A model generated the notes under the pieces. The model saw only the letters and a program-made list of their open reading frames with translations. It was not told the DNA's origin and did not search any database. Of a stretch of DNA of 22,780 nt, positions 18,184 to 22,780 are shown piece by piece. Source of the DNA: Parasitella parasitica (Eukaryota; Mucoromycota; Mucoromycetes; Mucorales; Mucoraceae). Each line of letters opens with the position of its first letter. The stretch's first letter is position 1. The DNA is taken from the NCBI GenBank assembly GCA_025201805.1, contig MU619273.1:91317-114096 (forward strand). The letters are read 5' to 3'. Position numbers and translations under genes: made by a program.

Positions 18184-19319
18184 ATGGGACAAATCATATC
18201 ATCCTTGAATCTCCGCGGCAATGATTCAATTGTGCCTGAAATAAACTTCGATATAGAAAGTAAGTAGACACCAAAAAAGAACAATGAATGTTACGCTTAC
18301 GAAGAAAATACATAGATGCCACACCTTTGTCAGATGAAATGGGAGTGTACGAGGAGCTTTACAAATTACTAGTAGAACCCAACTCAAACATGTTAGAAAC
18401 TATCAAAAATCTTAAACCTGCTTCAGACGAAATTCGAAACGCAATAGCGACACCAAACGAGGATACTGAAAACAAAGCACGGGAAGCTGTTTTACCTACT
18501 GTAAAGGCTTTGCACGAAATCTACAAATATTCTTCCGAGTTGGGTAATAAGGAGCTAATCGTGACAAATTTGCGTTTTTATTGATTTCTTGTAATGTGAT
18601 GTATAGAACATGGTATTCCTAAGCTCCTCGAAAATGTTCTATGCCAAGAGGGCGATAAAACAAAAGACCTTGAAAGACATCCGGGATTGACAAAGATATT
18701 TGCTGAAGTGCTTGACTTTGTATTTGAATTTGATTATGAAAAGATTAAAAACCCAGCGATGCAAAATGCTTTCTCGTATTATCGAAGACTTTTGCAAACA
18801 GGAAGAGCAGAGTCCGCACTGACCCCCATATCACCAAAAGAAGAGCAACCAGAGCATTTAGCTGTAATTGGAGATGATTTGAGTAATCAGATTTCATTGT
18901 TCATTGCATCTCATACACCCTTGCTGAAGAGTGTGATTGATACAACTACAGAGTATGTCAAATCCAAGCATCTTGTGAAATATACCAGCGAATGGTTAGC
19001 CAGTATCTGGGCTGCATGTCTTCATACGCTGAATTCAAACCACAAGAAATCAAACAATGGCTCAGTAGATACATTTTACTTGAAAGTCATGGTAGTATCC
19101 ATCATACTTTATGATCATATCGATCCAAACGGTGCATTTGCTAAAACCTCGCCAATCGATATAAAAGGTTCACTGAAAATAATTCAATCTGTAAACCAAG
19201 CCAACCAGCAAGAACAATGCAGCATATCTAACCTTGTCAGTGCTTTGAAATACAATTCAAAGCATTTGTATGATGAATCTACACCAAAAGGAATAAAGAA
19301 CTTTGTCATGGCCATTTAA
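18184..19319 (+). CDS. CYRI/FAM49 homologue (Rac1-binding, DUF1394)
   Basis: Three exons, join(18184..18259, 18316..18543, 18607..19319), encode 338 residues; human CYRI-A/B have 323-324. Known family: CYRI proteins bind active Rac1 at the plasma membrane and restrain the SCAR/WAVE-Arp2/3 pathway. The N-terminus MGQIISS fits N-myristoylation on Gly2, as in animal CYRI (MGNL…). The core block NPAMQNAFSYYRRLL contains Arg161-Arg162, matching the Rac1-contacting Arg160/Arg161 of CYRI-B. Near the C-terminus, VMVVSIILYDHIDPNGAFAK and IDIKGSLKI, then LKYNSKHLYDESTPKGIK, align with the animal proteins. Whole-length collinearity makes the family assignment firm. Rac regulation in this fungus is inferred. 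Its stop codon is 101 nt before the tetraspanin start. Confidence 0.92.
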
Positions 19320-19420: not shown

Positions 19421-20315
19421 ATGGACGATACCAAAAGTGACATTACAAAACCAAAACCATACTTGGGACTAACTCTATCTCGATGGGTTATTCTGTTATC
19501 AAGCTGTCTAGTACTGTGATAATGATGCACGCTTAAAGTTGAATACAAGAGATTAAATAATCCGTTTTACATAGCTTCTTTCATATGGCTCCATTGCTCT
19601 AATAGCTGCCCTAACTACATATGTAAAAAGCTACAAAAAGGCTACCATTATTACCATTGTGAACAAGGATTTATTGAGTTGTAAGTCTCATCTCTTGGAT
19701 TCAAATGTATGCATTTCTAAATTTGCTATAGCCATATTTTGTGCATCCTCCTTTTGCGTGATCGCTGCAGTTATTGGTATCTTGGCTGTGATAAGAAAAG
19801 ACAGGCACTTTTTAGCATGTCATACATTGTTGCTCTGGCCATGCCTTGCACTTTTAGCAACAGTTGCCTATCTTGCATACGGAGAAACAACATGGGATTT
19901 AAAGACACAGCTTGGCATGCAATGGCGATACGATTTCACGGCAGATGAGCATTATCAATTGCAAGAAAATCTACGATGCTGCGGCTTTGAGAACTCGTCA
20001 GACCATGCCAAATACAAATCAAACTGCTCCCAAGAGTCGCTTCTGCAAGGCTGTCATGAGAAATTGTTCTCATTTGAATCTGCTTTCTTAGCCAAAGTAT
20101 ACTCGATATGTTTCGGATTGATCCCAATTCACATGTTGGTTATCGTTGTGGCCTTGATCTACTCTCGCCCATCTACTCCCGGCCGCTATTATGCTAAGCC
20201 AACGCTAGTATCTATTAGATCTCCATCACTCAAGGATGAATATGTTCCTCATAGTCATGACGCTTCAAGTAAGCCTACTCATCATTGCTTGGCCTGTGAA
20301 AACTGGACATTTTAA
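19421..20315 (+). CDS. Tetraspanin-like membrane protein
   Basis: Four-pass membrane protein that organises membrane microdomains; fungal tetraspanins act in polarised growth. Two exons, join(19421..19510, 19575..20315), encode 276 residues. Hydrophobic segments lie at about 22-48, 78-103, 109-133 and 203-226. The large extracellular loop between the third and fourth carries the diagnostic Cys-Cys-Gly (LRCCGFEN, 165-167) and two further Cys (Cys181, Cys190), enough for two disulfides. The first loop is short. The cytosolic tail holds a His/Cys-rich end (THHCLACENW). An alternative 3' end exists: a canonical GTAAGC donor at 20269 and an AG at 20328-20329 or 20340-20341 would replace the tail with a short Arg/Gly-rich one (ARGRGRSNHDNHWA) ending at 20385. 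It follows CYRI closely on the same strand. Fungal subgroup (Pls1, Tsp2, Tsp3) is not determined. Confidence 0.8.
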
Positions 20316-20787: not shown

Positions 20788-21680
20788 ATGATGCTCTATA
20801 AACTCGTTGTGCTTGGCGATGGTGGTGTTGGCAAGGTAAAGCATTGAAAAGAAATCGTAGTTTGATACACAAGTTGCTTAACAAACTCCTTTATACATCA
20901 AACTATATAGACTGCTCTGACTATTCAGGTATATATTATTTAAACATTTTACATGATACGGTTGTGAATGAAATTTAACTTTTCATACCACACTCCAGCT
21001 CTGTCTCAATCACTTTGTCGGTATGTGCTTTATTTCGTTACGCCCTCGATAAATTAGACTAACCACTTTTTATTACTTTTTGTAGAGGTACTAATACAGT
21101 TTGATAAATTCCTTGTATTTGTCACTAAAAAAGCTACTCTAGACTTATGATCCTACTATTGAGGATTCGTACCGCAAACAAGTTGTTATCGACGATCAGC
21201 CATGTGTACTCGAAGTATTAGATACAGCTGGACAGGAAGAATATACTGCATTGAGAGACCAATGGATTAGGTAACATGTCACATATTGGCAAGAAATTTC
21301 GATACTAAAATCAAAACATCAGAGATGGTGAAGGCTTTTTGTTAGTATACTCGATTGCTTCTCGCTCGACTTTTGAACGCATTGAGCGCTTTCGTAATCA
21401 GATCTTCAGAGTGAAGGATCTTGATAACGTACCTATGATGTTGGTTGGAAATAAATGTGATAAAGTGACAGAAAGAGAAGTTACACGAGAAGAAGGATCT
21501 GCGATGGCTAAGCAACTAGCTTGCGATTTCATTGAAACTTCAGCAAAGACCTGTGTCAATGTTGAAAGATCATTTTATCAAGTTGTCAAAGCTATCAGAG
21601 CTCAGCGCGAAGGATCAAAACCTGGTGGACCCAAAGGAAAGAGTAAGAAGGAGAAGAAGAGTAAATGTTTAATCTTGTAA
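20788..21680 (+). CDS. Ras-family small GTPase (RasB-like), geranylgeranyl-type CaaL end
   Basis: Membrane-anchored GTP switch controlling morphogenesis and growth. Six exons, join(20788..20835, 20911..20928, 20999..21020, 21086..21087, 21143..21270, 21323..21680), encode 191 residues numbered like human Ras. The P-loop is GDGGVGKT (10-17), the effector region is [12 protein letters not shown], and switch II is DTAGQEEY with Gln61. NKCD and ETSAK supply guanine specificity. The tail is Lys-rich and ends CLIL. A final Leu in CaaX favours geranylgeranylation by GGTase-I. Switch II continuation [20 protein letters not shown] resembles filamentous-fungal RasB rather than Ras1. Exons 2 (18 nt) and 3 (22 nt) are tiny, and exon 4 is a 2-nt micro-exon needed to encode Glu30. 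Gly12 and Gln61 are wild type, so normal hydrolysis is expected. Rsr1/Rap-like identity is less likely. Confidence 0.94.
21086..21087 (+). other. Two-nucleotide micro-exon (AG) in the Ras gene
   Basis: The upstream intron 21021-21085 (65 nt) has GTATGT, a CTAAC branch-like element and TTTTTGTAG. The downstream intron 21088-21142 (55 nt) has GTACTA and CTCTAG. The AG between them completes codon G|AG (Glu30), followed by ACT TAT GAT. Removing the whole interval as one intron gives a shifted frame that reaches TGA at once. Confidence 0.75.
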
Positions 21681-22416
21681 ATCCTGCATCCCAACCCAAC
21701 CCCTCCATTCATCCCTTTCTTTTTATTCTACTCTTACCTGCTTATTCTTATTAACTAAATTTTATAAATTGTTATCAGTTGATTACTACCATAATAATTG
21801 TAAAATGTCTCGCACCTTTTACCGCCATGTACTGTTTATCTCCTTTTTTTTTTGGAAAAATAAAATATCATACAAAAATGATCGAGTTCTCACATTTGGA
21901 CGTCGATTGTGTCAATAAAAAATCATGCATCATTGTTTACATAAACCAAATAAATCATTGCTGTGGGGTAGTAAACGTTCAGCATTCAACGCCTCCTCCA
22001 TAAAAAGTTTGAAGGCGAAGCATTACTAACAGGAACAAACAGGAGTATTTTTTTGTGATTTTTTTCAGTAAATACTTGGATGTCTAAATTAATTGAATGC
22101 TTAAAAATAAAAGTATCGGAGCTTAAACTTGTAAGTGGTGAATGTAGCCCCTGTCTATGCCATCTTTTGATTTTGTGTAGCATCTAGTGTCTTCAAATAG
22201 TAAACTTTACCGAAGTATAAGAATATAGGTAATAGATGAACAAATAGCTTTGCTTTTTTTTTAAAAAAAAATTTATATCAAAAATTGAAAAATCTTTAGA
22301 GTTTGTATTGATATCCTTGCAGTACTATTGTCAATAAGTCTTATTATTGGTATCGATTGAGTAAAATTAAGCAATTGAACATATTGCAATATGTAATCAT
22401 GGATCTAATTAACGTA
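21681..22416. other. Intergenic region downstream of Ras
   Basis: No gene is recognised. The stretch is AT-rich with several AATAAA-like motifs (for example at 21859-21864 and 21915-21920) that could serve Ras polyadenylation. A T8/A9 homopolymer junction lies at 22255-22271. Short frames on both strands have no family features. Confidence 0.5.
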
Positions 22417-22662
22417 TTCAGTTCCCAGAGATACAAAGACTTTCTAATCGACTTTTTTTGACGAGCAGCTCTTAGCAACTAGGGAAGACCAAACCGCACA
22501 ATTCGTAGGGTTACCTTAAATAGTTCATGGTTTGGCAAGTTTATCAAGAATGATTGCAATTTGGCAGTAAAGCGAACGACTCGTCATCCTTTGAACAGAT
22601 ACCGTGAAGCTACATTCATCAAAATAAGGAGTAGGTTGAGAAGTAAACTCAAGCAGACATAG
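22417..22662 (+). pseudogene. Probable decayed pogo/CENP-B-like transposase fragment
   Basis: One frame runs from 22417 to a TAG at 22660-22662, broken by two internal stops. Readable parts are SSQRYKDFLIDFF, then GRPNRTIRRVTLNSSWFGKF, IKNDCNLAVKRTTRHPLNRY and REATFIKIRSRLRSK. The pattern of GRP, a Trp followed by F-x-K, a basic stretch ending KRTT and a following helix is typical of the helix-turn-helix DNA-binding part of pogo-like (Tc1/mariner) transposases. No catalytic DDE part is seen before the window ends. The stops argue that it is dead. The match is by pattern only. Confidence 0.35.
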
Positions 22663-22780
22663 GTTGCAAGAGCAACTGCATATTTGTCAGCCAACTTTTA
22701 TCTCATACTTGTCTCATACCAATATGAAGTTAAGAAAAGTAGGATCAACCACAAGAATTCCGGTCGTTGTTACAAGATTA

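Follow-up and report, generated by a model that had tools for sequence, protein, structure and literature searches.

A predicted two-nucleotide exon at codon 30 of fungal Ras2-type genes

Does a Ras GTPase gene need an exon of only two nucleotides to spell one of its conserved residues? The question arose at a locus in the window (the whole 22,780-nt stretch of Parasitella parasitica DNA that was analysed), where a first-pass annotation had proposed that the dinucleotide AG at 21086–21087, lying between two intron-like segments, completes an acidic codon that is otherwise two bases short. We are confident that the gene is of the Ras2 type and that its codon 30 (GAG) is split as G|AG| by two short introns, with AG as predicted exon 4. 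Direct reading of the letters agreed to the base with the proposed end of exon 3 (GTC G|GTATGT), with the coding block ACT TAT GAT CCT and with the position of AG, flanked by GT-AG introns that measure 65 nt before it and 55 nt after it.

The gene occupies 20788–21680 on the forward strand, within contig C37 of a 30.7-Mb genome. With the AG exon included, its open reading frame is 576 nt long and encodes 191 residues plus a stop, as the annotation had said, and the protein ends in KCLIL. The Pfam Ras family matched it with 193 bits, and two solved Ras alignments that we displayed were gapless across the codon-30 region. The nearest protein among the matches listed was a Ras of Mucor circinelloides (P0001; 97% identity, full length), and many of the nearest named proteins in this search were fungal and bear the name Ras2. 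The assignment to the fungal Ras2 type refers to the combination of a Ras domain with a CaaX-like C-terminal CLIL; we take CLIL to be the CaaX box and the region of Glu30 to be switch I. The predicted anatomy is given in Table 1. Tiny exons of 18 and 22 nt precede the 2-nt exon, and all three sizes are equal across three Ras2-type genes of this genome.

Table 1. Predicted features of the Ras2-type gene, in window coordinates; C150 and C113 are the contigs that carry its two paralogues.
Feature	Positions	Strand	Description
exon 1	20788..20835	+	48 nt, start of Ras2-type GTPase
intron 1	20836..20910	+	75 nt, phase 0, GTAAAG...TATATAG
exon 2	20911..20928	+	18 nt, TALTIQ; also 18 nt in C150 and C113
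intron 2	20929..20998	+	70 nt, phase 0
exon 3	20999..21020	+	22 nt, LCLNHFV plus base 1 of Glu30; also 22 nt in C150 and C113
rival donor GT	21017..21018	+	TTT|GTCGGT; 126-nt intron to 21142 in frame, removes Val29-Glu30
intron A	21021..21085	+	65 nt, phase 1, donor GTATGT, acceptor TTGTAG
branch-site-like CTAAC, intron A	21059..21063	+	about 23 nt upstream of the acceptor; consensus match only
exon 4, 2-nt micro-exon AG	21086..21087	+	completes GAG (Glu30)
AGAGGT element	21084..21089	+	acceptor AG, micro-exon AG, donor GT; identical six bases in C150 and C113
intron B	21088..21142	+	55 nt, phase 0, donor GTACTA, acceptor CTCTAG
terminal AG of intron B	21141..21142	+	identical mRNA if (non-canonically) exonic
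exon 5	21143..21270	+	128 nt, begins ACT TAT GAT CCT, ends QWI
intron 5	21271..21322	+	52 nt, phase 2
exon 6	21323..21680	+	lysine-rich tail, CLIL, stop

We then considered how strictly the two letters are needed. When exon 3 was joined straight to exon 5, the product read ...FVDL*. The annotation had claimed that the frame fails immediately without AG, and this holds for the direct join; it does not hold for an in-frame intron from 21017 to 21142 that drops Val29 and Glu30, nor for an 11-nt exon at 21088–21098 that is also open, both of which are weighed below. Splice combinations were enumerated for all donors between 21000 and 21089, as single introns of at least 35 nt (GT-AG, GC-AG or AT-AC) and as pairs of GT-AG introns of at least 30 nt. 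The whole gene stayed open with 41 single introns and 121 intron pairs; among the combinations enumerated, the pair 21021–21085 and 21088–21142 alone restored the conserved Ras sequence. That sequence is strongly kept: among 111 relatives without a gap nearby, Glu30 was retained in 108 and Val29 in 105, as read from protein models.

AGAGGT is the sole AGNNGT within the 122-nt stretch of the window gene, and the sole one in the composite intron of each paralogue too. We made 5000 dinucleotide shuffles of each composite intron from the three Ras2 genes. A Glu-coding 2-nt exon flanked on both sides by introns of no less than 40 nt arose by chance in 1.2%, 3.8% and 0.5% of shuffles for the three genes, and the exon AG itself in 0.26%, 1.4% and 0.14%. 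The candidate combines what is expected of an ultra-short micro-exon: AG and GT bounds, intron-sized GT-AG flanks, a need for it in both the frame and a conserved residue, and recurrence in related genes.

This recurrence was seen in at least two further Ras2-type genes, found on C150 and C113 by a genome search that scored the best candidates. In its own orientation, each of the two carries exons of 48, 18 and 22 nt, followed by AG and next by ACA or ACT TAT GAT. Four proteins from other fungi (P0004, P0022, P0061 and P0021), cut to their first 175 residues, were matched to the three loci by spliced alignment, with gap and intron costs of our own choosing. All 12 runs returned exons of 18, 22 and 2 nt with AG as the last, under a script that admitted only GT-AG introns of 40–300 nt and so could not have chosen a non-AG acceptor. 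Introns A and B measure 65/55 nt in the window gene and 72/99 and 62/64 nt in the paralogues. In five of six comparisons between paralogues, the similarity of the flanking introns did not exceed the maximum from 200 shuffles; only intron A of the window gene against that of C113 slightly surpassed it (0.68 vs. 0.66). AGAGGT is kept in all three genes despite largely diverged introns.

Other Ras relatives in the same genome set the length that should be found at this junction. The genes that we labelled Ras1-type (C26, C70 and C21) and Rap/Rsr1-like (C68 and C64) have no intron at this codon, and all five read FV(D/E)-x-YDPTIE unbroken, which fixes the expected length. We also built a tree solely from the part of the protein downstream of the junction. 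The window gene clustered with proteins of Mucor circinelloides, Thamnidium and Rhizopus stolonifer. C150 joined those of Choanephora and Mucor velutinosus, and C113 fell among Helicostylum, Gilbertella and other Mucor, although the inner fork was weaker. Because C113 and the other two genes fall in different well-supported groups of Mucorales, the AG exon would be older than that duplication.

If the exon were present in other fungi and unseen by gene finders, their Ras2 protein models should break at this point. We counted insertions and deletions at residues 28–38 in the best 120 of 6500 proteins above threshold, sorted by hand into 92 NCBI-type records, 24 short non-NCBI records and 4 others; the short records are contigs below 3 kb that are cDNA-like in appearance, and putatively so. 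Damage was present in 39 of the 120: in 38 of the 92 NCBI-type records, 1 of the 24 short ones and none of the 4 others (38/92 vs. 1/24, Fisher p = 0.0004). The remaining 81, seen as protein models alone, had no counted damage at these residues. The single damaged short record, P0052, reads FVTDYDPTIED, and the other 23 are undamaged. The count includes P0052 and P0015, which are not ordinary Ras2 proteins, and leaves out P0100 and P0118, which are visibly altered with damage at the alignment end. A second cluster of 17 indels, at residues 105–109 and 1–2 residues long in the rows printed, we read as natural length variation.

The forms of the damage were compared in a wider collection of 172 proteins, which includes searches with damaged queries and is biased toward damage, so that rates are taken from the 120 best only. 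Much of the damage took forms that would be expected from a 2-nt exon gone unseen. Val-Glu was absent exactly in 12 of the 172, and 11 of these were among the 120 best: Phycomyces blakesleeanus, Radiomyces, Podila, Piptocephalis, Martensiomyces, Rhizophagus, Piromyces, Violaceomyces, Glomus and two Gigaspora. The twelfth, from Batrachochytrium, was found by a Val-Glu-less query. This exact loss is consistent with a gene finder's in-frame escape around an unseen 2-nt exon. P0113 (NHFIYDPT) resembles this form and was left out of its count.

In six of the 172 (P0001, P0025, P0039, P0042, P0070 and P0095), FVG was followed by K, K, S, R, M or E. This is how G|GTAAG, G|GTATG, G|GTGAG and similar donors read when translated, which suggests that intron A was read through; it would then probably lie after the same G in Mucor, Calcarisporiella, Actinomortierella, Thamnocephalis, Linnemannia and Powellomyces. 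Three models (P0014, P0016 and P0128) contain FVEVN, the form predicted for GAG followed by GTNAAY, that is, for AG and then a read-through donor of intron B. Four others (P0117, P0165, P0169 and P0118) have a residue codable by NYA before Glu-Thr-Tyr; a read-through tail YAG|AG|ACT might produce this, and since many residues fit the match is weak. In P0007, P0008, P0017, P0020 and others, LCLNHFVE is wholly missing, which is consistent with the micro-exon and equally with an unsplit 24-nt exon. About nine or ten damaged models match no simple scheme (P0035, P0040, P0051, P0071, P0082, P0093, P0098, P0100 and P0109); P0082, for example, reads FVDKKD... without the FVG expected from read-through of intron A at G|GT.

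The altered models come from many fungal phyla: Batrachochytrium (Chytridiomycota), Piromyces (Neocallimastigomycota), Violaceomyces (Basidiomycota), Piptocephalis (Zoopagomycota), Martensiomyces (Kickxellomycota), Rhizophagus (Glomeromycota), Podila (Mortierellomycota), Entomophthora (P0169; Entomophthoromycota) and Phycomyces (Mucoromycota). Two proteins filed under plants, P0079 (the fern Adiantum nelumboides) and P0163 (the oak Quercus suber), match fungal Ras2 at this junction, and P0079 has a 2-residue insertion near residue 107 that it shares with smut fungi. Both are probably fungal contamination of plant assemblies.

Could these observations be explained by something other than a 2-nt exon? 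A single intron of 126 nt, from the GT at 21017 to the AG at 21142, is open, in frame and canonical at both ends, and would give a protein without Val29-Glu30 (NHF-TYDPT) as the sole form or as an isoform; several public annotations print just this form, which is that of the 12 collected models described above. Its donor, however, would be GTCGGT (GTTGGT in both paralogues), whereas all 16 introns inferred in the three genes begin with GTA. The Val-Glu-less form was also found in none of the 24 short non-NCBI contigs, it lacks two residues that nearly all ungapped relatives keep, and it leaves AGAGGT unexplained in all three genes. We consider this intron very unlikely. We give a similarly low probability to a 120-nt intron that starts at 21021 and is cut before the terminal AG of intron B, so that 21141–21142 become exonic. 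This would yield the same protein and an mRNA (GTCGAGACT) letter-identical to that of the micro-exon, and the identity holds in all three genes. The annotation's statement that the two bases are supplied only by AG at 21086–21087 is thus true under GT-AG splicing, but the same letters are also present at 21141–21142. Because of this identity, the cDNA check that had been proposed cannot by itself separate the two arrangements, and a read aligner may well place the two bases at 21141–21142. A strong argument against the 120-nt intron is that its ends would be CT, TT and GT in the three genes, with a normal AG acceptor two bases on; AGAGGT would also be a matter of chance in all three, at the shuffle frequencies for AG given above.

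The remaining explanations are less probable again. A sequencing or assembly error, in which two bases were lost near the junction of a normal single intron, is possible in principle at any single locus; no result of the analysis favours it, and here the same phase gap and the same AG occur on three contigs with different intron sequence, and gene models from other sequencing projects break at the same junction. Three loci would need an identical error, so that this alternative, raised by the annotation itself, has become highly improbable. We give still less credence to an 11-nt exon at 21088–21098 (acceptor 21087, donor 21099). It keeps the reading frame of the window gene open, but it replaces Glu30 with four foreign residues (GTNT, in FVGTNTTYDPT), and C150 and C113 have no open frame-keeping exon of 2, 5, 8 ... 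29 nt except AG. Equally hard to credit is a zero-length exon, for which intron A would end at 21087 and the GT at 21088 would be spliced recursively to an out-of-frame product that is degraded. Recursive splice sites take the form AG|GT, which is present at 21087/21088, and two AGs do lie 2 nt apart; the product, however, would read FVDL* or FVDI* in the three genes, which excludes it as the productive route. Such use may occur as waste or control beside the micro-exon. The locus was accordingly rejected as a recursive splice site, since use of its AG|GT gives an early stop, and as a stwintron, since the mRNA needs the two exonic bases AG. The micro-exon reading, by comparison, is unique among the combinations enumerated, recurs in two paralogues and is matched by damage of the expected kinds in gene models across fungi, and to this extent the first-pass annotation was upheld.

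How might a spliceosome handle the 2-nt exon? The 16 inferred introns of the three Ras2 genes are 49–99 nt long, a size for which intron definition is expected (for Mucorales, this is our extrapolation), and intron definition is stated for Ascomycota in the available text of PMC12403724. We infer that each short intron would be recognised as a unit and that the two would be removed one after the other, because a 2-nt exon cannot bear two complexes at once. Within the same six bases, the acceptor of A overlaps with the donor of B, which would prevent their simultaneous recognition and likewise implies stepwise removal. Within AGAGGT, the first AG would act as the acceptor of intron A; the second would be the exon and, at the same time, positions −2 and −1 of the intron B donor (AG|GTA), its exonic half. 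The intron A donors are GTATGT, GTAAGA and GTAAGT, following exons that end in TCG or TTG. All three have G at +5, vs. none of the 13 other donors, which follow AG (p = 0.002, for a pattern noticed before it was tested). The 5' splice sites of these genes thus seem to need either AG before the cut or G at +5, and the micro-exon would supply the AG. Codon 30 is GAG in all three genes, even though each of them uses GAA more often than GAG for Glu. The micro-exon may therefore be viewed as a piece of splice signal that also codes.

Intron A would probably be removed first, because the intronic part of its donor is near consensus, whereas the donors of B rely on the AG in front of them. With A out and B still in, the predicted intermediate is GTCG^AGGTACTAAT, or at further length GTCG^AGGTACTAATACAG; with B out and A still in, it is TTTTTGTAGAG^ACTTAT, or at further length TACTTTTTGTAGAG^ACTTATGAT. 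If the second AG of the tandem were chosen as acceptor, the frame would be lost and translation would end at once.

The presence of the exon in three Ras2-type genes, together with the damaged models in many phyla, argues that it is old and constitutive. We lean toward the view that Ras2 already had the AG exon in an early ancestor shared by most living fungi, and that its length stayed at exactly 2 nt in chytrid, Neocallimastigomycota, zoopagomycete, Mucoromycota-type and some basidiomycete lineages. It would have been retained because it both codes, locking Glu30, and supplies the exonic part of a 5' splice site; many models would lack it because neither gene finders nor read aligners place it. 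If so, it would be among the oldest ultra-short exons known. Outside this genome the proposed age draws on protein models; DNA of this gene from relatives was not found in the viral-contig or genome-contig collections searched. In the available parts of the sources, Ras2 is described with one 280-bp intron in Trichoderma (PMC3494722) and with one intron in Arthrobotrys (PMC8313493), so the arrangement is likely absent from part of the ascomycetes.

Exons of 1–2 nt test how the spliceosome pairs splice sites, as an exon-bridging complex cannot form on them. If a 2-nt exon lasted through much of fungal history, then such exons can be stable and accurately spliced and are not merely recent accidents, and this one would offer a natural set of homologous substrates. 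There is also a practical consequence: a considerable fraction of public fungal gene models have an incorrect Ras2 switch I, to judge from the 38 of 92 NCBI-type records altered there.

The neighbours of the gene are recorded here as a separate observation. On the same strand, about 1.5 kb upstream, an open reading frame at 18600–19319 carries a CYRIA/CYRIB Rac1-binding domain (241 bits), so that a Rac1-binding-domain frame lies near a Ras gene. A tetraspanin-like frame (19575–20315) lies between the two. Downstream of the Ras gene, over the remainder of the window (21681–22780), a scan that covers intronless frames found no stop-to-stop frame of at least 100 amino acids.

Lastly, we compared the locus with known ultra-short exons. 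Among the papers listed by searches of open-licence literature, no title or abstract opening deals with a 2-nt exon of a Ras gene or of Mucoromycota, and there was no ultra-short exon common to paralogues and apparently to many phyla. A search aimed at 2-nt exons turned up one immunogenetics paper; the available portions of PMC3990503, PMC4739763 and PMC8146680 hold nothing on exons of this size. The annotation had placed exons of 2 nt near the lower limit known; 1-nt exons are already published (PMC4674806, PMC12940212). The AG exon is not the smallest known, and what is unusual is its likely age.

The comparisons below draw on the available parts of each source. Arabidopsis APC11 has a 1-nt exon (Guo and Liu 2015, PMC4674806). 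Like it, the AG exon is predicted to be a constitutive ultra-short exon between GT-AG introns, essential for the frame and hidden by wrong annotation; the APC11 exon was tested by base substitution. The present exon differs in having 2 nt rather than 1, in belonging to a fungus rather than a plant, and in being shared by three paralogues and apparently by many phyla, whereas two rice paralogues of APC11 are described without an intron. Closer in lineage is the 1-nt exon of Fusarium CYP621A, which is backed by RNA reads (Nelson and Syed 2026, PMC12940212). Both cases are fungal, affect a conserved motif, lie in an apparent intron that exceeds twice the median size and were discovered through a phase mismatch, and the CYP621A gene models are wrong with one exception, as Ras2 models are likewise damaged here. 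In contrast, the CYP621A exon has 1 nt and is described from Fusarium only, with RNA reads, while the one reported here has 2 nt, lies in a Ras gene, apparently spans many phyla and is known from sequence.

Longer micro-exons of fungi offer a further contrast. The 20-nt micro-exon of Trichoderma Xlr2 (PMC11121469) was likewise missed by a gene model, but it is glucose-regulated, whereas the 2-nt Ras2 exon cannot be omitted without a frameshift. Those of Phanerochaete P450 genes (PMC1184071) are also longer, the shortest exon being 6 bp. Stwintrons (PMC12403724) resemble the Ras2 arrangement in having adjacent U2 introns in fungi that are removed consecutively under intron definition. A stwintron, however, is defined by an internal intron that splits the donor, branch element or acceptor of an external one, with no exonic base separating the two; at the Ras2 locus, two exonic bases would separate the introns, and either order of removal would lead to the same mRNA.
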